Assembly (NCBI RefSeq): GCF_000011085.1
Contig: NC_006396.1
Span: 1-64,000, forward strand
Reading direction: 5' to 3'
DNA length: 64,000 nt
DNA from: Haloarcula marismortui ATCC 43049
GTDB lineage: Archaea > Halobacteriota > Halobacteria > Halobacteriales > Haloarculaceae
Part shown: piece by piece, positions 11,724-61,446 of the stretch
Position numbering within the stretch: the first letter of the stretch is position 1
Layout of the letters: each line of letters starts with the position of its first letter
Translations under genes and position numbers: made by a program
The notes under the pieces: model-generated
What the model was told of the DNA's origin: nothing
Seen by the model: only the letters and a program-made list of their open reading frames with translations
Databases searched by the model: none

Positions 11724-11746
11724 GCAGGTTTGTGTAGAATTGCGTG

Positions 11747-14068
11747 ATGGATTCAAATAGGGACTCGCCGCTCCCGAGCTTTATTGCTGGCAGTTACGCT
11801 GCCAGGCTCGGGGTGGCGCTTTCATTCGCGATACTTGTTATTATCGCTGCTGGAGTCCTGACAAGCGTGCAGGCGTCCGCCACTCTCGAAGAAGACGTGG
11901 CGGACGACATCACCGCGCTGTCAGAGACACAGGCAGTACAGTTAGACGACTGGCTGACGACATCGCGTCGGAACGTCCGGTCGACGTCGCGACTTCCCGT
12001 GTTCACCGACGGAACGGACACGGAGAAACAGCAACGACTGGAGGAGTTACGGTCCAACGAGGAACTACCGCCCGGTGTCGTCGCAGTGCACTACTTTGAC
12101 ACCGAGACAAGCGAGATTCGCGCCAGTTCGAATCAGGACTTCATCGGGGTCAACGCTGCCGAGCAAGGGGCACCGTTCGCTACGGACCCGCCGCAGTTCG
12201 ACGGCCCCGACGACACGCACGTGACGGAGCCGTTCTCTGTCTCGGTCGTCGACCATCCGATAGTGGCCGTCGTTTCGCCGGTCCCCGGTGACGAAGACAG
12301 AGCGCTCGTGTACATGATCGATCTCCGGGAGAAGGCTGACCAGATATCGAGCCACCGCGAAGGGTCATTTACCACGGTTGTCAACACCGACGGGGAGTTC
12401 GTCTCACACCCCAACCACTCGATGATCGGGTCGACGGCACCGATTTCCCAGATGGAATCGGACCCGCTGGGCACGCTCGAACCCGGACAGAGAATGTTCC
12501 ACGAAACAGACAGTATGTTGATGGGGCTGACCCGTCTCGAATCACACGACTGGGTCGTTATGGTCCACTCCGACCGGGAGGCCGCATACGCCCTGAGCGA
12601 TCAGATCAACTCTGACCTCATTGGTCTCATCCTGCTTGCCGTCGTCAACCTTGGACTCATCGGGGTCACGATCGGCGGAAACACGATTGCTTCGCTGCGG
12701 CGGCTTTCAGTAAAGGCTGAAGCGATGGCCGACGGTGAGCTGGATGTCGACCTCGATACGTCCCGGGAAGACGAGTTTGGAACACTGTACGCTGCCTTCG
12801 ATAATATGCGGGCAAACCTCCGGACACAGATATCTGAAGCCGAAACTGCCAAGCAGGAAGCCGAGGCGGCCAAAGAGCAGGCACAGGCTGCCCGTGAGGA
12901 TGTCGAATCCGAACGCAACGAGATGGAGGCGCTGACCGGCCACCTCGAACTCAAGGCACAGCAGTACAGCGACGCCCTCGACGCAGCCGCCAACGGCGAC
13001 CTCACCGCACGGGTGAAAACGGACAGCATGAACGACGCAATGGCGGAGGTCGGCGAGGACATCAACACGACGCTCGATGCGCTCGAAGACACAATCGCCG
13101 ATATGAAAGCGTTCGCGACGAACGTCATCCAGTCCAGCGACCGTGTCAACTCGAACGCGGAGCGGGTCGACCGGGCTAGCAAGCAGGTGTCGAAGTCGAT
13201 CAACGAGATCTTCGAGGGGACGACCGAGCAAAACGAAGGGCTTGAATCGGCGGCCGCAGAGATGCAGAACCTTTCGGCGACCGCACAGCAAGTCGCCTCC
13301 TCCGCCCAGCAGGTCGCCGACACGTCCCAGTCGGCCGCAAAAGTTGGCGAGGACGGCCGCGAAGCCGCACAGGAAGCTATTGCGGAGATGAGCGCTATCG
13401 AGGCCGAGACCGGCGAGACCGTCGAAGAGATCAACGCGCTCGACGATGAACTCGACGAAATCGGTGAGATTGTCGGCGTCATTACGAGTATCGTTGAGCA
13501 GACGAATATGCTGGCGCTGAACGCCTCTATCGAGGCCGCCCACGCTGACGGTGACGGTGAAGGGTTCGCTGTCGTCGCAGACGAGATCAAGGGCCTCGCA
13601 GAGGAGACCAAAGAGGCCGCCGCTGACATCGAAGGGCGCATCGAGGCCATTCAGGAGCAGGCCGGCGACACCGTCGAGACGATGGAATCGACCAGCACCC
13701 GAATCACTGAAGGCGTCTCGACGGTCGAGGAGACCGTCGACGCACTGGAGACCATCGTCGAGTACACCGAAGAGGTCGACACCGGCATTCAGGAGATCGA
13801 CCGGGCGACCGAGGAACAGGCCCGGACCGCACAGGACGTGATGGGGACTATCGACGACTTGACGACGATCAGTCAGCAGACGGCGACGGAGGCGGACACC
13901 GTGGCCGGCGCGGCACAGGACCAGTCCGCGTCCATCGAAGAAGTGTCTGACTCCGCGACGGAACTCAGGCAGCGTGCTGACGATCTCGAATCGCTACTGG
14001 ACCGCTTCACTGTCGAAAACTCCGCCGGGACGGGCACCGACAGCACGGCCGCTGTGGGGGATGACTAA
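11747..14068 (+). CDS. htrII: Sensory rhodopsin II transducer (methyl-accepting chemotaxis protein)
   Basis: Membrane signal relay of blue-light phototaxis; it pairs with SopII encoded 2 nt downstream. The 773-residue protein has TM1 at about 20-42, a large extracellular domain at about 43-288 (Cache-like, so probably also chemosensing as in the serine-responsive Halobacterium HtrII), TM2 at about 291-312, a HAMP region starting [20 protein letters not shown], a second HAMP-like coiled coil, and a cytoplasmic MCP domain containing the conserved hairpin tip [17 protein letters not shown]. Gln/Glu pairs typical of methylation sites flank the tip. The start is set by the TATA spacing. Confidence in pairing comes from the immediately adjacent rhodopsin gene. 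Confidence 0.95.
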
Positions 14069-14070
14069 CA

Positions 14071-14781
14071 ATGGCAACGATAACAACCTGGTTCACGCTG
14101 GGATTACTGGGTGAACTGCTCGGGACGGCGGTGCTGGCGTACGGCTACACGCTTGTCCCCGAAGAGACGCGGAAGCGGTATCTGCTGCTGATCGCGATTC
14201 CGGGTATCGCCATCGTTGCCTACGCGCTGATGGCGCTTGGCTTCGGGTCGATACAGAGCGAGGGGCACGCGGTGTACGTGGTCCGTTACGTCGACTGGCT
14301 GTTAACGACGCCGCTCAACGTCTGGTTCCTGGCGCTGCTCGCTGGCGCAAGCCGGGAGGACACGGTGAAACTCGTCGTCCTGCAGGCGTTGACTATCGTC
14401 TTCGGATTCGCCGGCGCGGTCACTCCATCACCGGTTAGCTACGCGTTGTTCGCAGTCGGTGGAGCGCTGTTCGGCGGCGTCATCTATCTCCTCTACCGGA
14501 ACATCGCAGTGGCTGCGAAGTCGACCCTGTCCGACATAGAGGTCAGCCTGTACCGCACACTCCGGAACTTCGTTGTCGTCCTCTGGCTTGTGTATCCGGT
14601 CGTCTGGCTACTCGGTGCGGCAGGAGTGGGCCTCATGGATGTCGAGACCGCGACGCTCGTGGTCGTTTACCTCGACGTGGTCACGAAAGTCGGCTTCGGC
14701 GTCATTGCCTTGCTGGCGATGATCGACCTCGGCTCAGCCGGGGAGACCGCCGAGGAGCCGACAGCGGTTGCAGGGGACTAG
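14071..14781 (+). CDS. sopII: Sensory rhodopsin II (phoborhodopsin)
   Basis: Seven-helix retinal protein of 236 residues that senses blue-green light for repellent phototaxis. The retinal Schiff-base lysine is K206 in YLDVVTKVGFG, the counterion D75 lies in RYVDWLLTTPL (R72, Y73, D75, W76), and the signalling-relevant Y175 and T205 correspond to Y174/T204 of Natronomonas SRII. D193 of that protein aligns with an alanine here. Asp at the bacteriorhodopsin proton-donor position (D96) is replaced (F86-A88 region lacks it), as in sensory types. It is translated right after HtrII (2-nt gap), as expected for a stoichiometric complex. Followed at once by GC-rich hairpins. Confidence 0.95.
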   Translation: MATITTWFTLGLLGELLGTAVLAYGYTLVPEETRKRYLLLIAIPGIAIVAYALMALGFGSIQSEGHAVYVVRYVDWLLTTPLNVWFLALLAGASREDTVKLVVLQALTIVFGFAGAVTPSPVSYALFAVGGALFGGVIYLLYRNIAVAAKSTLSDIEVSLYRTLRNFVVVLWLVYPVVWLLGAAGVGLMDVETATLVVVYLDVVTKVGFGVIALLAMIDLGSAGETAEEPTAVAGD

Positions 14782-17870: not shown

Positions 17871-20345
17871 TCAGTCGAGCTTTTCAGACCCAGTGTCGGA
17901 GTCGAACAGCGAACCGATGACGGCGTCGTGGGCCTTCCGCAACCGGTAGTGTAAGGTCGGCGCGGAAATGTCGAGTGTCGCAGCCAGTTCCTCCGCGGAA
18001 CTCCCTCGCGGCCAGTCGTAGTAGCCGCGCGCATAGGCAGTCTTGAGCGCGGCGGCCTGTTTCGGCGTTAGCCGGTCGCGTATCCGTGTCTGGAAGTCAG
18101 TGGCCGTCGAGACCGGCTGGTCGACGTACTGCTTGCTCCGTAGTTCTGTCCCGGGCGTTCCCTCCTGAATCGCCTCAACAACGGCACGGACGTTGATATC
18201 CGGCGCCATCTCCGCTGTGAACCGCAGATCGCCGTCCGCTGCGACGGCCTGCTGAACGGCCCCGCCGTAATCTGCGAGCGTGTCAAGCGGCGATGTGGAT
18301 ATCTCATCAAGCGTGACTTCGAACAGGGGCGCTCGGTTCTCCGCCGCCGTTTCCACGACGGCACAGGACTCGACTGACGGCGTCTCAGTGAGCGCCTGAC
18401 ACACCCGGTCACTGTCCACACCCTTGGCGCGAACATAGTGGATACAGTTCCCGGAGCTGATCGGAACGCGCCGTTCGAGCGTGAATGAACAGTCGAGCAT
18501 CGCGGAGAGGCCGGCGAAGATATCGTCGGAATCCGGCGTCAGGAACTCCAGTTCGACGGTCGTCGCCGCCAGCAATGACTGCTGACTGTGGACGCGCTGG
18601 ATAGAAAGCGCGATAAGTCGCCCCAGATCAGCCAGGATGTCCGACTCACGGCAGCCAATCGTCGCTCCAGTCGATGCGTACACCATCAGTACGCCGTATG
18701 TAGTCTCGCCAGTTGTCAGGGGAACTGCCGCGACGGAGCAATGGTCTTCGATTAGTGGGCAGTCGATCTTGGTGTCCGAAGGCGTCGACACGCTGGCGAT
18801 GTCCTCGACGACCTGTACCTCACCGGTGTCGATGGCGTCGATGGCGAGGCTGTGCTCGCCGGACGAAAGCTGCTCCGATGTCGCCGTGTCTATCCCAGCA
18901 GCGGCACCCAGTGTTATGCTCGTGGCACTCCCGCGGCTCCCGGTCCAGACGGCCTGGTACAGGTCCGATTCAGTGAGATGTGCACACACTGCCGATTCGA
19001 TTCCCTCACGTGTCTGTGTGTCCTGTAACGCCTTCGCGATCTCTCTGCCCAGCACGTTGAGCCGCTGTGCCTGCTTGAGCTTGTCACGCTGTCGTTCGAG
19101 CTCGGTCTGGCGGTGCTTATGAGCGGTGATATCTCGCGCGACGAAAATGACAGTGTCGGGGTCGTACGCGCGACTTTCCAGCGGTGCGACCCGTGCCTCG
19201 AACCACCGCTTGTCACTGGGTACCTGCAGTTTGTACTCCACGGACTGGAACGACCCGGTCCGCAGGGCTGCACGAACGGCCGCCAGTAGCGAATCAGCGG
19301 TATCGTGAGGGAAGAACTCGTGTAGCGTCTGGCCGACAAGCGTGTCCGTATCGTCTACCGTCAGCATCGTCTCCGGGTCGGTCAGACAGTCGAGAAATCG
19401 CCCTTCCGCGTCGATAATGAAACTGGGGTCGGGAAAGGCAGTGTTCAACGCGTCCCGCTGTTCCGAGTGGCGCTGTCGTTCGAGTTCGTAGCCGGCCCAG
19501 TCGGAGAGCAACCGGACGAACGTCAGGTCCCACTGCGTGAACTCCGCTGTGCGCGGCTCCAGTCCGTAGAAGCAGAACGTCCCGTACACGGCTCCATCGA
19601 CGACGACGGGCGCGCCGATGTAGTTCACAATGCCCCACTCCGGGTCAGCGAGGTCCGGCGCGTCCGCCTCAACGTCCCTGATCGCGAGCGGTTCGCGGTG
19701 TTCGACGACGTGTCTGCAGTTCGGGAGGTCCTCGATGCTGGTCGTTCGGCCGGCTTCGAGGTCGGCAGTCGTCGGTGCAGTGACTGCCTCGAACACGTAC
19801 TCGTCGCCGTGGACCCGAGAGAGCGTCCCAAACGACGAACCGAGCGTCTCACAGCCGAGTTCTAACAGCGCGTTGAGCTGTTCTGTGAACGTCCGGCTTG
19901 AGTCGGTGCAGATGTCGTAGGCCGCTTCGAGCACCGACTCCCGTTGCTTCCGGGCCGTGATGTCGATATGTGCGATAGATGCGAACGTCTCCCCATCAAT
20001 GGTGAACGGAGCAGCGTACAACCGGAACCACCGCTTCGCTGACTGGGTGTGACACGGGTATTCGAGTTCGAACGAGGATTGCTCGCCGGCGAGGACGGCC
20101 CTGATCCCCTCGGCTGCCTGTTGCCCAGTCGTGTCGTCAGCCATGTCAGCGACACCGAGGTAGTTCACGCCGAGCGTATTCGGTGTCACCTCTGTTCCGT
20201 TTGCCCGGCCGAACTCGCTCCATGTCTCGTTCGTCGAGAGAATCATCCCGGACGCATCTACGATCGCAAACATGAGGGGTAGTGTATCGATGGCTGGCCC
20301 GTACAGAGCGGGAACATCGTGGCCATCCATGACACTCGGGACCAT
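17871..20345 (-). CDS. PAS/GAF sensor protein with bacterio-opsin-activator HTH-10 domain
   Basis: An 824-residue one-component regulator of the Bat type. Reading order: PAS at about 15-130 (LPLMFAIVDASGMILSTNE), GAF at about 150-295, PAS at about 300-430 (DPSFIIDAEGRFLD), GAF at about 440-600, a bacterio-opsin-activator-associated domain at about 610-750, and the HTH_10 domain at about 762-815 (LTPKQAAALKTAYARGYYDW, then LHYRLRKAHD). PAS and GAF domains suggest redox, light or small-molecule sensing with direct transcriptional output. A TATA box 27 bp upstream of the first ATG (20345) supports that start over the internal one at 20330. Targets unknown; it lies 3 kb from the phototaxis operon and tail-to-tail with trmJ. 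Confidence 0.88.
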   Translation of the reverse strand: MVPSVMDGHDVPALYGPAIDTLPLMFAIVDASGMILSTNETWSEFGRANGTEVTPNTLGVNYLGVADMADDTTGQQAAEGIRAVLAGEQSSFELEYPCHTQSAKRWFRLYAAPFTIDGETFASIAHIDITARKQRESVLEAAYDICTDSSRTFTEQLNALLELGCETLGSSFGTLSRVHGDEYVFEAVTAPTTADLEAGRTTSIEDLPNCRHVVEHREPLAIRDVEADAPDLADPEWGIVNYIGAPVVVDGAVYGTFCFYGLEPRTAEFTQWDLTFVRLLSDWAGYELERQRHSEQRDALNTAFPDPSFIIDAEGRFLDCLTDPETMLTVDDTDTLVGQTLHEFFPHDTADSLLAAVRAALRTGSFQSVEYKLQVPSDKRWFEARVAPLESRAYDPDTVIFVARDITAHKHRQTELERQRDKLKQAQRLNVLGREIAKALQDTQTREGIESAVCAHLTESDLYQAVWTGSRGSATSITLGAAAGIDTATSEQLSSGEHSLAIDAIDTGEVQVVEDIASVSTPSDTKIDCPLIEDHCSVAAVPLTTGETTYGVLMVYASTGATIGCRESDILADLGRLIALSIQRVHSQQSLLAATTVELEFLTPDSDDIFAGLSAMLDCSFTLERRVPISSGNCIHYVRAKGVDSDRVCQALTETPSVESCAVVETAAENRAPLFEVTLDEISTSPLDTLADYGGAVQQAVAADGDLRFTAEMAPDINVRAVVEAIQEGTPGTELRSKQYVDQPVSTATDFQTRIRDRLTPKQAAALKTAYARGYYDWPRGSSAEELAATLDISAPTLHYRLRKAHDAVIGSLFDSDTGSEKLD

Positions 20346-56502: not shown

Positions 56503-57840
56503 ATGTCAAAGACGCCGCCCGGACCGAAGGGCGAACCGCTGTTCGGCAGTAGTCGCACGTACGCTCGGGACCCGTTCCGGTTCATCTCGGCACTGGAACG
56601 GGCCTACGGCGACGTCGCTCGATTCGATATGGGGCCGATGGACACGGTCATGCTGTGTGACCCGACGGCAATCGAGCGCGTGCTGGTCTCGGAGGCAGAC
56701 CGGTTCCGCAAGCCCGACTTTCAGGGAGATGCGCTCGGGGATCTGCTGGGTGACGGACTGCTGTTGAGCGAAGGCGAGACGTGGGAGCAGCAGCGAAAGC
56801 TCGCAAACCCTGCGTTCTCGATGGCGCGACTGTCGGGGATGGCCGACCGCATCACCGGCCACGCGGAGGACCGCATCGCCGACTGGTCCCACGGCGATGT
56901 CATAGACGCCGAGCAGTCGATGACTAGGGTCACGCTGGACGTAATTCTGGACCTGATGATGGGCGTCGAACTCTCCGAACAGCGAGTCCAGACCATCGAG
57001 GAGCAACTGCTGCCGCTGGGCCAGCGGTTCGAACCGGACCCGATCCGGTTTGCTATGCCACAGTGGATGCCGATGCCGGACGACGCCGAGTTCAACCGCG
57101 CCGTGCGGACGCTGGACGAGGTGCTGGACGACATTATCGAGGTCCGCGAGGACTCGCTCGGGACGGATGAGGACGGTCCGATGGACTTCCTGTCGGTACT
57201 CTTGCGTGCCCGTGACGATGGGAACCAGTCGCCCGAGCAACTGCGTGATGAGATGATGACGATGCTGCTTGCGGGCCACGACACGACGGCGTTGACGCTG
57301 ACCTACACCTGGTTCCTGCTGTCGGAACACCCCGAGGTCGAACAGCGAGTCCACGAGGAACTGGACGACGTCATTGGCGACGACCGGCCGGGGATGGAAC
57401 ACGTCCGTGAACTGGACTACCTCGAATGGGTGATTCAGGAAGCGATGCGGCTCTACCCGCCGGTGTACACCATCTTCCGGGAGCCGACCGAAGACGTGAC
57501 GCTGTCAGGCTACGAGGTCGAGGCGGGAACGACGCTGATGGTCCCACAGTGGGGTGTTCACCGCTCCGAGCGGTTCTACGACGACCCCGAGACGTTCGAC
57601 CCGGAGCGCTGGAAGCCCGAGCGAGCGAGCGAGCGGCCCCGGTTCGCCTACTTCCCGTTCGGGGGTGGCCCGCGCCACTGTATCGGGAAGCATCTTGCCA
57701 TGCTTGAGGCGCAACTCATCACTGCAACGACGGCCAGCCAGTACCGACTGGAGTTCCAGGGAGAGACGCCACTTGAGCTGTTGCCGTCGTTGACCGCCCA
57801 TCCCCGACAGAAAATGTCCATGCGCGTGCAGGAACGGTAA
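56503..57840 (+). CDS. Cytochrome P450 (CYP174-like)
   Basis: A 445-residue soluble P450. The heme-thiolate loop FGGGPRHCIGKHLA is intact (Cys about 393), the I-helix oxygen-activation motif is AGHDTT, the ExxR is in EAMRLYPP and the meander PERW follows. No N-terminal membrane anchor is obvious; it starts PPGPKGEPLFGSSRTY, like the haloarchaeal CYP174 family. Substrate unknown; lipids or isoprenoids are possible given neighbouring isoprenoid kinase genes, but this is speculation. Likely single gene. Confidence 0.92.
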   Translation: MSKTPPGPKGEPLFGSSRTYARDPFRFISALERAYGDVARFDMGPMDTVMLCDPTAIERVLVSEADRFRKPDFQGDALGDLLGDGLLLSEGETWEQQRKLANPAFSMARLSGMADRITGHAEDRIADWSHGDVIDAEQSMTRVTLDVILDLMMGVELSEQRVQTIEEQLLPLGQRFEPDPIRFAMPQWMPMPDDAEFNRAVRTLDEVLDDIIEVREDSLGTDEDGPMDFLSVLLRARDDGNQSPEQLRDEMMTMLLAGHDTTALTLTYTWFLLSEHPEVEQRVHEELDDVIGDDRPGMEHVRELDYLEWVIQEAMRLYPPVYTIFREPTEDVTLSGYEVEAGTTLMVPQWGVHRSERFYDDPETFDPERWKPERASERPRFAYFPFGGGPRHCIGKHLAMLEAQLITATTASQYRLEFQGETPLELLPSLTAHPRQKMSMRVQER

Positions 57841-58214: not shown

Positions 58215-60395
58215 ATGACGCCTGAAACCGCTGGCGTCGGGGACGCCAGGGTCCGGGTCCTCTACGTTGGCACCGATTCGGACGACACCGAGACGCTGTC
58301 GACGGCTCTCGAACGCGAGAACAACCGCTTCACCGTCGAAACGGCTCGCACCGTCGACGAGGCTATGGCAAGGTTGGCTGCCGAGCCTGTCGACTGTCTC
58401 GTTTCCGACTACCGCCTGTCCAATGGGAACGGCATCGAGCTTCTGGAAACGGTCCGCGACGAGTACCCGGCCCTGCCGTTTATTATTTACACCGCACAGG
58501 GGAGCGAGGCAGTCGCCAGCGAGGCAATTTCGGCCGGTGTGACGGACTACCTCAGGAAAGAGCCGGGTGCCAAACAGTATGCCGGGCTGGCGAACCGAAT
58601 CAGTGACGCCGTCGACCACTCCCGCTCACAGCAGGCGGTCAGCGAGCGGAACCGAGCGCTCCAGAGCTACGAGCGGATGGTCAACTCCATGCAGGAGGCT
58701 GCCTGTATTTACGATGCCGAAGACCGGTTCGAAATCGTCAACGAGACCATCGCAGAGTGGTACGACACGACGCGCAATGAGCTCGAAGGACAGACCAGTA
58801 GACTCGTTCCGCGTATTCGAGCCGAGGGTGAGACAGACTGTTATCAGGAACTGCTCGACGGAACGCGGGAGAAACTTAGCGGCGAAATCGAAACGGAGTT
58901 CCCCGGCCACGGACACGCGGTGGTCGCGTACCAACTAACGCCGCTGGTCGTCGATGGTACTATCGACGGCATCGTCGGCGTAGCTCGTGATGTTACCGAG
59001 CAGAAAGAGCGCGAACGGGAGCTACTCCGGAACAAGCGCGCGATAGACGAGGCCCCGGTCGGCGTCACCATCACTGACCCCAACCAGCCGGACAACCCGC
59101 TGATCTACGCTAACGACCACTACCGCGAGCTGACTGGCTACTCGCTCCCGGAGCTGCTCGGGAAGAACTGCCGAATACTTCAGGGCGAGAACACCGACCC
59201 GGAGCCTGTCGATGCACTACGGGACGCTATCGACGCAGGGGAGCAGGTGTCGGTCGAACTCCGGAACTACCGAAAAGACGGGACCGAGTTCTGGAACCGG
59301 GTTCGGATCGCGCCAGTTCGCGACGACGACGGCACAGTCGTCAACTACGTCGGGTTCCAGCAGGATACCACCGAGCGGAAGCGCCGCGAGAAACGATTAG
59401 AGGAAACGTCATCGCGGCTCGAAGCCCTCTTCGAGAACTCGCCTGATATGATCGATGTGCTCGACGCCGACGGAACGATTTGCGAGGTGAACCAGCGATT
59501 CTGCGCGGAACTGGGGTACGACGAAAGCGAGGTGCTTGGACGGTCGATCTGGGAGTTCGACCTGATGTTCGACGCCGAGGACGTGCAGACCCAGCTTTCC
59601 GGGTTCAGTGTCGACGAGCGCCGCAAGTTCGAAGGCCTGTACGAACGCCGCGACGGGTCGACGATGTCGGTCGAAGTGCATTTGCTTCGATTCAATCTCG
59701 AAGGAGAGGATCGCTTCCTGGCGATCAGTCGAGACATCACGGAGCGAAAGGAGCGCGAGCAGGAACTCGAACAGCAAAATGAACAGCTCGAACAGTTCGC
59801 CAGCGTCGTTAGTCACGACCTGCGGAACCCGTTGACCGTTGCACGCGGACAGCTCGAACTCCTACGTGAGGAATCTGACAGCGAGCATATCGACGCTATC
59901 GACACTGCACACCAGCGCATGGATACGCTCATCGATGACTTGCTTACGCTCGCACGCGATGGTGCGTCACCCGCTTCGCCCGTCGTGGTTGACCTCGAAC
60001 AGTTTGTCCAGACGTGCTGGCAAAACGTCGATACGAAAGCCGCGACGCTCCGCACTGACATAGACCGGCCCATCCGCGCCGACGAAAGTCGCCTCCGTCA
60101 ACTGTTCGAGAATCTCGTCCGCAATGCGGTCGAACACGGCGGTGACGACGTGAGCGTGACGGTCGGCGAACTGGCTGACGGCTTCTACGTTGAGGACAAC
60201 GGTGCCGGTATTCCAGAGCCCGAGCGCGGGGACGTGTTTTCAGCCGGCTACTCGACCGCGGTAGAGGGAACCGGATTCGGCCTGAGCATCGTGAAACAGG
60301 TCGCCGACGCCCACGGCTGGACGGTCCGAGTCGTCAGCGGGGCTGACGGCGGCGCGCGGTTCGAATTTACCGACGTTGACGCCGTGTCCGAATAG
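58215..60395 (+). CDS. Receiver-PAS-LOV-PAS hybrid sensor histidine kinase
   Basis: A 726-residue soluble kinase. Order: receiver domain about 12-125 with phospho-acceptor D65 (LVSDYRLSNG); PAS about 148-262; a LOV-type PAS about 275-388 with the photo-adduct cysteine C319 in GKNCRILQG, and flavin-contacting N351, N361 and Q382 in the expected places (NYRKDG, FWNRV, GFQQD); PAS about 400-512; HisKA with H534 (VVSHDLRNPL); HATPase about 625-722 (NLVRNAVEHGGDD, VEDNGAGIP, GTGFGLSIVKQ). It should sense blue light by flavin and autophosphorylate; no cognate response regulator gene is adjacent. Start ATG overlaps an upstream dubious ORF as ATGA. Confidence 0.93.
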   Translation: MTPETAGVGDARVRVLYVGTDSDDTETLSTALERENNRFTVETARTVDEAMARLAAEPVDCLVSDYRLSNGNGIELLETVRDEYPALPFIIYTAQGSEAVASEAISAGVTDYLRKEPGAKQYAGLANRISDAVDHSRSQQAVSERNRALQSYERMVNSMQEAACIYDAEDRFEIVNETIAEWYDTTRNELEGQTSRLVPRIRAEGETDCYQELLDGTREKLSGEIETEFPGHGHAVVAYQLTPLVVDGTIDGIVGVARDVTEQKERERELLRNKRAIDEAPVGVTITDPNQPDNPLIYANDHYRELTGYSLPELLGKNCRILQGENTDPEPVDALRDAIDAGEQVSVELRNYRKDGTEFWNRVRIAPVRDDDGTVVNYVGFQQDTTERKRREKRLEETSSRLEALFENSPDMIDVLDADGTICEVNQRFCAELGYDESEVLGRSIWEFDLMFDAEDVQTQLSGFSVDERRKFEGLYERRDGSTMSVEVHLLRFNLEGEDRFLAISRDITERKEREQELEQQNEQLEQFASVVSHDLRNPLTVARGQLELLREESDSEHIDAIDTAHQRMDTLIDDLLTLARDGASPASPVVVDLEQFVQTCWQNVDTKAATLRTDIDRPIRADESRLRQLFENLVRNAVEHGGDDVSVTVGELADGFYVEDNGAGIPEPERGDVFSAGYSTAVEGTGFGLSIVKQVADAHGWTVRVVSGADGGARFEFTDVDAVSE

Positions 60396-60462
60396 GACTT
60401 CGATGGTCATCCTGACCGTCGACTCCGAAAACGCCTAACGCCCTGGGTGCACACGGGCGGGT

Positions 60463-61446
60463 ATGGTCACGTCGAGCGCTCCCGGGAAAGTGTACCTGTT
60501 TGGGGAGCACGCGGTCGTCTACGGCGAGCCGGCGGTGCCCTGCGCCATTGAGCGGCGGGTGCACGTGACGGCAACCGAGATCGACGAGGGATTACGTATT
60601 CACGCGAACGACTTGCAACTGGATGGCTTTACTGTCGAGTACTCCGGTGACGGGGAGAGCCATCCGGACGTGGATGTCGCCGAATCGCTCGTCGAAGCTG
60701 GGATGGGATACGTCAACGAAGCGGTCGCACAGGCCCGTGACGCGGCCGATGCCCCTGAAGCAGGCTTCGAGATATCTGTGGAAGGCGACATCCCGCTTGG
60801 GGCGGGGCTGGGCTCGTCGGCCGCGCTCGTCGTCGCGGCGATAGACGCGGCGACCAGAGAACTCGGCGTCGAACTGTCAGCGAGCGATATTGCCGACCGC
60901 GCCTATCAGGTTGAACACGCAGTTCAGGACGGGCAAGCCTCGCGGGCGGACACGTTTTGCTCGGCGATGGGCGGGGCGGTCCGCGTGGAAGGCGACGACT
61001 GCCGGCGGCTGGAGGGCATCGACACCCTCCCCTTCGTCATCGGCTACGACGGCGGGGCCGGCGATACTGGGGCGTTGGTCGCCGGCGTCCGGGACCTCCG
61101 TGGAAAGTACGATTTCGCCGCCGACACCGTCGCAGCAATCGGCGACATCGTCCGCGAGGGCGAGTCAGTACTGGGAACGGGCGACTACGAACGGCTCGGG
61201 GAGCTGATGGATTTCAACCACGGACTGCTCTCGGCGCTGGGCGTCTCCTCGCGGTCGCTGGACTCGATGGTGTGGGCGGCCCGCGACGCCGACGCCCACG
61301 GCGCGAAACTCACCGGGGCCGGCGGCGGCGGCTGTATCGTCGCACTGGACGAAACGGACGACGCGCTCACCGCGCTGAAGTACACGCCGGGGTGTGAGGA
61401 TGTCTTCCGGGCCGAGCTGGACACCGACGGAGTCCGGCAGGAATGA
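60463..61446 (+). CDS. mvk: Mevalonate kinase
   Basis: Phosphorylates mevalonate in archaeal isoprenoid (lipid) synthesis. The 327-residue GHMP kinase has SAPGKVYLFGEHAVVYGEPA, the ATP loop PLGAGLGSSAALVVA (about 109-123), the catalytic region DGQASRADTFCSAMGG, and LTGAGGGGCIVAL near the end. Overlaps ipk by 4 nt, forming a two-gene isoprenoid operon. In many haloarchaea these genes follow rps2 directly; here 5 kb separate them. Confidence 0.95.
   Translation: MVTSSAPGKVYLFGEHAVVYGEPAVPCAIERRVHVTATEIDEGLRIHANDLQLDGFTVEYSGDGESHPDVDVAESLVEAGMGYVNEAVAQARDAADAPEAGFEISVEGDIPLGAGLGSSAALVVAAIDAATRELGVELSASDIADRAYQVEHAVQDGQASRADTFCSAMGGAVRVEGDDCRRLEGIDTLPFVIGYDGGAGDTGALVAGVRDLRGKYDFAADTVAAIGDIVREGESVLGTGDYERLGELMDFNHGLLSALGVSSRSLDSMVWAARDADAHGAKLTGAGGGGCIVALDETDDALTALKYTPGCEDVFRAELDTDGVRQE

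Follow-up and report, generated by a model that had tools for sequence, protein, structure and literature searches.

A LOV histidine kinase with a fixed LOV-to-histidine spacing and a degenerate receiver in Haloarcula marismortui

The gene at 58215..60395 of the 64-kb window (the stretch of 64,000 nucleotides of Haloarcula marismortui DNA analysed here, from an assembly of 4.27 Mb in 9 contigs) encodes a protein that is, by its sequence and predicted fold, a bona fide LOV histidine kinase. In our estimate the chances are about three in four that it works as a soluble dimeric histidine kinase regulated by blue light via its LOV domain.

Domain structure and identification of the LOV domain

The gene is a single ORF with an ATG start and without internal stops, and the encoded protein has the order receiver, PAS, LOV, PAS, HisKA, HATPase. 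Pfam matches cover Response_reg (residues 18-116), PAS_9 (281-387, corresponding to the LOV domain), PAS_4 (406-513), HisKA (525-582) and HATPase_c (623-719), while the first PAS domain gives only a weak match to PAS_7 (156-267). With the domain bounds as adopted here, the features are:

56503..57840, + strand: cytochrome P450, conserved upstream neighbour (Pfam; synteny)
58215..60395, + strand: LOV histidine kinase gene, 726 aa (ORF/translation, Pfam, 10 same-locus Haloarcula genes 77-100% identical)
58254..58604, + strand: degenerate receiver (REC), aa 14-130 (Pfam Response_reg; G19/T20 replace the acidic pair; D65, T93, K115 kept; dN/dS 0.31)
58656..59009, + strand: first PAS domain (PAS1), aa 148-265 (weak PAS_7 match; 58% identity to same-locus G023)
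59034..59381, + strand: LOV domain, aa 274-389 (Pfam, structure alignments; model pLDDT mostly >90)
59169..59171, + strand: C319, presumed adduct-forming cysteine (NCRILQ; 10/10 orthologs, 21/21 of the wider family alignment)
59265-59267, 59295-59297 and 59358-59360, + strand: presumed flavin-contact residues N351, N361 and Q382 (10/10 orthologs, 21/21 of the wider alignment)
59370..59435, + strand: predicted continuous helix from LOV to PAS3, aa 386-407 (AlphaFold2 model helix 119-140; start of the 3bwl construct)
59400..59750, + strand: third PAS domain (PAS3), aa 396-512, corresponding to PDB 3bwl (phmmer, Foldseek title)
59778..59963, + strand: HisKA/DHp, aa 522-583 (Pfam; dN/dS 0.06)
59814-59816, + strand: H534 (His in 10/10 orthologs)
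60012..60380, + strand: ATPase domain (CA), aa 600-722, with N box and G boxes (Pfam HATPase_c)
60424..60438, + strand: putative promoter-like element TCCGAAAACRCCTAA shortly upstream of the GHMP kinase gene (exact in 29/30 Haloarcula mvk loci)
60463..61446, + strand: GHMP kinase, by position and family mevalonate kinase (mvk), conserved downstream neighbour (Pfam; 59/60 genomes)

The His box of HisKA and the N and G boxes of the ATPase domain are all present, as in HisKA-type histidine kinases. The residues that mark a canonical LOV domain are found in their usual surroundings, the cysteine in a GXNCRFLQ-type motif (C319, GKNCRILQ) and the Asn, Asn and Gln contacts in LRNYRKDG (N351), EFWNR (N361) and VGFQQD (Q382), within a LOV/PAS fold. 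All four are kept in the ten same-locus Haloarcula orthologs. They are also invariant in the 21-row wider family alignment, whose rows were chosen by the NCR motif and a LOV-to-His spacing of 152 residues and which thus cannot show how frequent the LOV cysteine is. The LOV stretch ranks third of 93 PAS_9 matches genome-wide, matches solved LOV structures with E-values down to 4e-34, and is the only one of the three places fitting N.R.[LV]Q in the six-frame window at which a PAS domain is present. Therefore, the LOV assignment is not a chance match. The NCBIfam model for blue-light-activated histidine kinases (NF052306) gave 169.8 of 450 bits, below its cut-off, with the LOV domain as the best stretch. 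The LOV domain ends in a conserved D-I-T, which in the H. marismortui protein alone reads D-T-T (residue 385); the other nine orthologs have isoleucine. The initial annotation had named the same four residues as those of a canonical LOV photosensor in a histidine kinase with an N-terminal receiver and no adjacent output regulator. Residues and layout are as it described, and no response-regulator gene was found beside the kinase gene, whose neighbours are the P450 and GHMP kinase genes.

Occurrence of LOV domains and receiver kinases

Among 242 Halobacteria genomes with a completeness of at least 90%, for each of which 18 candidates were scored, 216 (68 of the 74 genera) contain a match to the H. 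marismortui LOV domain at E <= 1e-30, the cysteine being disregarded, and LOV-like domains are thus near-universal in Halobacteria. In the H. marismortui genome alone, the cysteine is present in three LOV domains and missing from two LOV-like domains, and six opsins are encoded as well. The first of the cysteine-bearing domains (C8:59031) belongs to the kinase described here, and the second (C8:733901, NCRFLQ) to a receiver-PAS-LOV-GAF-kinase. The third (C9:143227, NCRFLQ) lies together with a LOV domain having proline instead of cysteine (C9:145636, NPRFLQ) in a frame of 2318 aa that has numerous PAS_9 matches (L059, G000:C9:141679-147033, minus strand), and in which a HATPase_c match reads through a TGA. 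The remaining LOV-like domain is found in a 193-aa frame (L060, G000:C7:166239-166553, minus strand), where leucine replaces the cysteine (ENLRLLQ) and the WNY, RFRN and LGVQ contexts are kept. The window itself does hold, besides the LOV kinase, a second photosensor, an opsin gene (Bac_rhodopsin, 14071-14781) directly downstream of the gene for its transducer, a HAMP/MCPsignal protein (11744-14068). The two blue-light sensors counted for the organism in the initial annotation, which took this pair for SopII/HtrII, are however an undercount, given the LOV domains and opsins in the rest of the genome. A Bat-like regulator (PAS-GAF-BAT-HTH_10, 17871-20345, minus strand) is encoded 3.1 kb from the opsin gene, and the window-wide scan did not find a LOV motif in it.

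The kinase had also been called unusual for its N-terminal receiver, which cannot be maintained: 18 of the 62 HATPase_c matches of the genome above cut-offs have a receiver N-terminal in the same frame (pairs counted by eye, one further pair lying below the cut-offs), and RR/PAS/LOV kinases have been published (PMC4844311). Because LOV domains are widespread in Halobacteria and kinases with N-terminal receivers are ordinary in this genome, the gene encodes a typical haloarchaeal sensor kinase.

Selection across orthologs and the degenerate receiver

A search of 60 relatives gave ten full-length genes of 77-100% identity, including that of H. marismortui, each of them flanked by the same P450 and mvk genes. 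The median pairwise dN/dS values (45 pairs) are 0.308 for REC, 0.180 for PAS1, 0.156 for LOV, 0.094 for PAS3, 0.062 for DHp, 0.161 for CA and 0.176 for the whole gene. The LOV domain of one ortholog (G005, L022) is nearly identical to those of two others (G006, L021; G012, L023), yet the mvk+ipk tree groups this genome with H. marismortui (G000), and it is likely that the kinase gene has recombined between Haloarcula species.

The receiver is the fastest-evolving domain. By the usual alignment its acidic pair, D/E-D in functional receivers, is replaced by G19 and T20, while D65, T93 and K115 remain. The pair reads G-T or G-I in 10/10 orthologs, so that both metal-binding acidic residues are absent throughout. 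In addition, D65 is changed to Glu and K115 to Arg in G028 and G017, and T93 to Ala in G028. Outside Haloarcula, 14 of the 15 relatives in the family with the 152-residue spacing keep both acidic residues, and the fifteenth (L110) has D-A. Based on the definition of Bourret et al. 2025 (PMC12632262), by which a receiver without any one of the five residues is a pseudo-receiver, the Haloarcula domain is, from its alignment, a pseudo-receiver in all ten orthologs. The suggestion that the receiver modulates the kinase as an input is not supported: with the acidic pair gone from every ortholog and the domain evolving fastest, a modulation by receiver phosphorylation is doubtful. Some residual phosphorylation might occur, as most orthologs retain D65, T93 and K115, and D21 could in part stand in for the acidic pair.

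Coupling of the LOV domain to the kinase core

The distance from Q382 to H534 is 152 residues in all ten same-locus orthologs. The same LOV-to-His spacing was found in 20 of the 24 measurable proteins from named genomes, and these 20, five of which come from Haloarcula species also represented in the set of relatives, are all those with a PAS3-like domain (47% identity or more to PAS3). They belong to Haloarcula, Halobacterium, Halospeciosus, Halorubrum, Natrinema, Haloferax and Halobellus. The four exceptions (L108, L113, L116, L150) have other domain orders. In one of these, L116 of Haloarcula salina, a receiver-LOV-kinase of 598 aa, the LOV domain directly precedes the kinase and the Gln-to-His spacing is 29 residues. 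A length that stays constant over about 50% sequence divergence would fit a rigid mechanical coupler.

The AlphaFold2 model (aa 268-590, monomer, alignment of 21 sequences) has a mean pLDDT of 86.6 and a pTM of 0.50, and the relative placement of the domains in this monomer is therefore unreliable. Besides the helix joining LOV and PAS3, the model contains a single long helix, predicted for residues 509-553, that runs from PAS3 into DHp and bears H534. Foldseek ranked the LOV-PAS and LOV-PAS-HK structures from Brucella first, followed by 3bwl. The LOV fold of the model superposes on the LOV chains of Brucella LOV-HK (e.g. 6ph2) with 0.8 A over 114-116 residues at 39% identity. PAS3 is identical to 3bwl in 123 of 124 residues (phmmer), 3bwl being the domain of this same protein.

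Mechanism and alternative inputs

In the reading that we favour, blue light would excite a flavin bound to the LOV domain, and C319 would form a reversible cysteinyl-flavin adduct. Q382 on the I-beta strand may then pass the change into the helix 386-407, which would shift PAS3, and from there the signal would reach the dimerisation/His domain along the continuous helix 509-553. Autophosphorylation of H534 would change, followed by phosphotransfer to response regulators that are presumably encoded elsewhere, and a physiological output would follow from these. The fixed spacing counts for this mechanism because it is expected of a rigid coupler. The retained LOV residues, the dN/dS of LOV and DHp, the complete set of kinase motifs, the resemblance of the model to Brucella LOV-HK and the photoactive ALovD-1 (see below) speak for it as well. 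The receiver-like N-terminus seems to have given up its role as a phospho-switch in the Haloarcula lineage and probably contributes contacts only.

The input could, however, enter at another point. PAS3 has a dN/dS of 0.094, the lowest among the PAS domains and below the 0.156 of LOV, so that the main input could be a ligand bound there. PAS3 would then be the domain that chiefly senses an indole-like metabolite, and LOV would only modulate it. 3bwl was crystallised with 1H-indole-3-carbaldehyde (PMC3726324, PMC3949515), and two Asp side chains hold this ligand in place (PMC3726324). A candidate ligand pair is given by D449, present in 21/21 sequences of the wider alignment, and D414, present in 6/21 and only in Haloarcula members. 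The same account of the structure describes the ligand as fortuitously trapped (PMC3726324), and the strong constraint may reflect dimer contacts alone, so that we regard a leading role of PAS3 as unlikely. It is also conceivable that the LOV domain binds flavin but answers to its redox state, through flavin reduction, or to some other signal, with any light response incidental. Signalling by a Cys-less LOV domain through flavin photoreduction has been published (PMC4682037), and in two LOV-like domains of the H. marismortui genome the Cys is indeed replaced by Pro or Leu. A purely redox role would not need C319, which is nevertheless invariant in the ten orthologs, and this makes the redox input quite improbable. 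A combination of inputs in the H. marismortui group is conceivable too, with light at LOV, an indole-type tryptophan (photo)product at PAS3, where the Haloarcula-specific D414 accompanies the invariant D449, and the receiver unused. Both signals would converge ahead of H534 on a single rigid helix whose length is fixed. One protein would then read light plus the chemistry of light damage, but we consider this very unlikely. The solved structure of PAS3 is a head start for functional work.

Evolution of the locus

A kinase gene, ten times of the LOV type and once without LOV (G023), lies directly upstream of mvk at 11 of the 30 Haloarcula loci examined, and the P450 is on the opposite side in the 11/11 cases read at length (the window and ten regions). 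All eleven loci fall into one clade of the mvk+ipk tree (support 0.984), which also includes three genomes with an empty site (G021, G019, G027). G019 and G027 group together with 0.998, and G021 is inside a clade with 0.992, its exact place having 0.198. From this tree as well as from scar alignments, the kinase has probably been lost in these three. A 42-nt block has an in-register identity to kinase 3' ends of 0.71 in G021, 0.62 in G019 and 0.74 in G027, compared with 0.29-0.43 in 14/14 tested genomes that do not belong to the kinase-bearing set (G002 and G008, both among the 30 loci, did not form part of this comparison); a shifted control likewise reached 0.71-0.74, the spacers being of unequal length. 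With 200 shuffles each, G021 scored 40 against a maximum of 33. G019 scored only 36 against 35 and did not pass when aligned to the whole gene (36 against 40), and in G027 the best alignment was located elsewhere (44 against 41; 44 against 49 with the whole gene). A deletion scar, meaning a remnant of the kinase 3' end, is accordingly probable for G021 and weak for G019 and G027.

The G023 protein aligns end to end with L108 of Haloglomus halophilum (REC-PAS1-LOV-PASb-PASc-HK; 73% identity in PASb and 70% in PASc) except for one missing block, the LOV domain, which sits between a pair of DIT motifs. An exchange of LOV and PAS3 for unrelated PAS domains (27% and 26% identity) had been considered for G023 and was dropped, as only the LOV module is missing in comparison to L108. 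LOV has either been removed from G023 or was never inserted. The kinase half of G023 is closest to the LOV kinases (75%) and its receiver is closer to other proteins, so recombination in its history is likely. To judge from these alignments, the LOV domain acts as a removable module. Light input is thus dispensable, considering the probable losses in three clade members and the LOV-less relative. Conversely, the locus makes the role of light testable, because between the same two neighbours ten genomes keep the gene, three have probably lost it and one has the version without LOV.

The conserved neighbourhood could be taken to mean that the kinase serves the adjacent isoprenoid and P450 genes, controlling by light the supply of carotenoid or retinal precursors. 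However, the element upstream of mvk is present in 30/30 loci with or without the LOV kinase (exact in 29, with one change in G008), and in genomes outside the kinase-carrying clade, too, P450 and mvk lie side by side or close together. For the distant LOV-PAS3 relatives G015 and G054, P450 or mvk matches were not found within 19-kb regions. An operon with mevalonate kinase was rejected as strong evidence on function because the mvk element is independent of the presence of the kinase, and a role in isoprenoid supply is most improbable. That the gene is decaying and without function, for which the degenerate receiver and the probable losses could be cited, is hardly credible given the whole-gene dN/dS of 0.176, the 0.062 of DHp and intact frames in 10/10 orthologs.

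Comparison with known systems

The LOV-HK of Brucella abortus is not known to have an N-terminal receiver or an extra PAS domain, and its kinase is of the HWE type. It shares the LOV-PAS-kinase order with the H. marismortui protein and provides the best structural matches to the model (6pps, 6ph2, 6ph3, 6ph4), while NF052306 matches the sensory stretch of the H. marismortui protein only. YtvA is not known to contain a kinase, and YF1, an engineered fusion, has a single LOV domain and is not known to carry PAS3 or a receiver. Their LOV domains are 45-47% identical in structural alignments (2pr5, 2mwg, 4gcz), and YF1 (4gcz) is, like the H. marismortui protein, a LOV histidine kinase. In the comparison to YtvA by NF052652, the H. 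marismortui protein reaches 185.8 of 250 bits.

Archaeal LOV kinases, including RR/PAS/LOV kinases, have been catalogued by Losi et al. 2014 (PMC4844311, section 2.3), and Valle et al. 2025 (PMC12202551) list 28 archaeal LOV sequences, some with REC modules. LOV, RR and PAS modules ahead of a histidine kinase are thus shared with other proteins of Halobacteria described there. A parallel is ALovD-1, which likewise comes second among the three PAS domains of its kinase. A Halonotius homologue of that kinase also has 726 aa, and ALovD-1 forms a slow-cycling LOV390 adduct and works up to 3 M salt (PMC12202551). In the H. marismortui LOV domain an R follows FWN, a feature given for group A in the same paper. 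In the open-access literature searched, we found neither a functional study of the H. marismortui gene nor a function reported for any archaeal LOV kinase. LOV-like domains occur in most Halobacteria, yet ALovD-1 is the only archaeal LOV domain that we found measured there. This kind of protein is thus already described in archaea, and photoactivity has been shown in 2025 for another archaeal LOV domain. A degenerate receiver, a fixed spacing and the history of the locus are not among the features described in the relevant parts of PMC4844311 and PMC12202551, and the discussion of 3bwl in PMC3726324 and PMC3949515, where PAS3 was solved alone, does not mention the adjoining LOV domain. The points added here are the 152-residue LOV-to-His spacing, the degenerate receiver, the ligand-bearing structure of the PAS3 domain next to LOV, and, at one and the same locus, a LOV-less variant together with probable losses in three other genomes.
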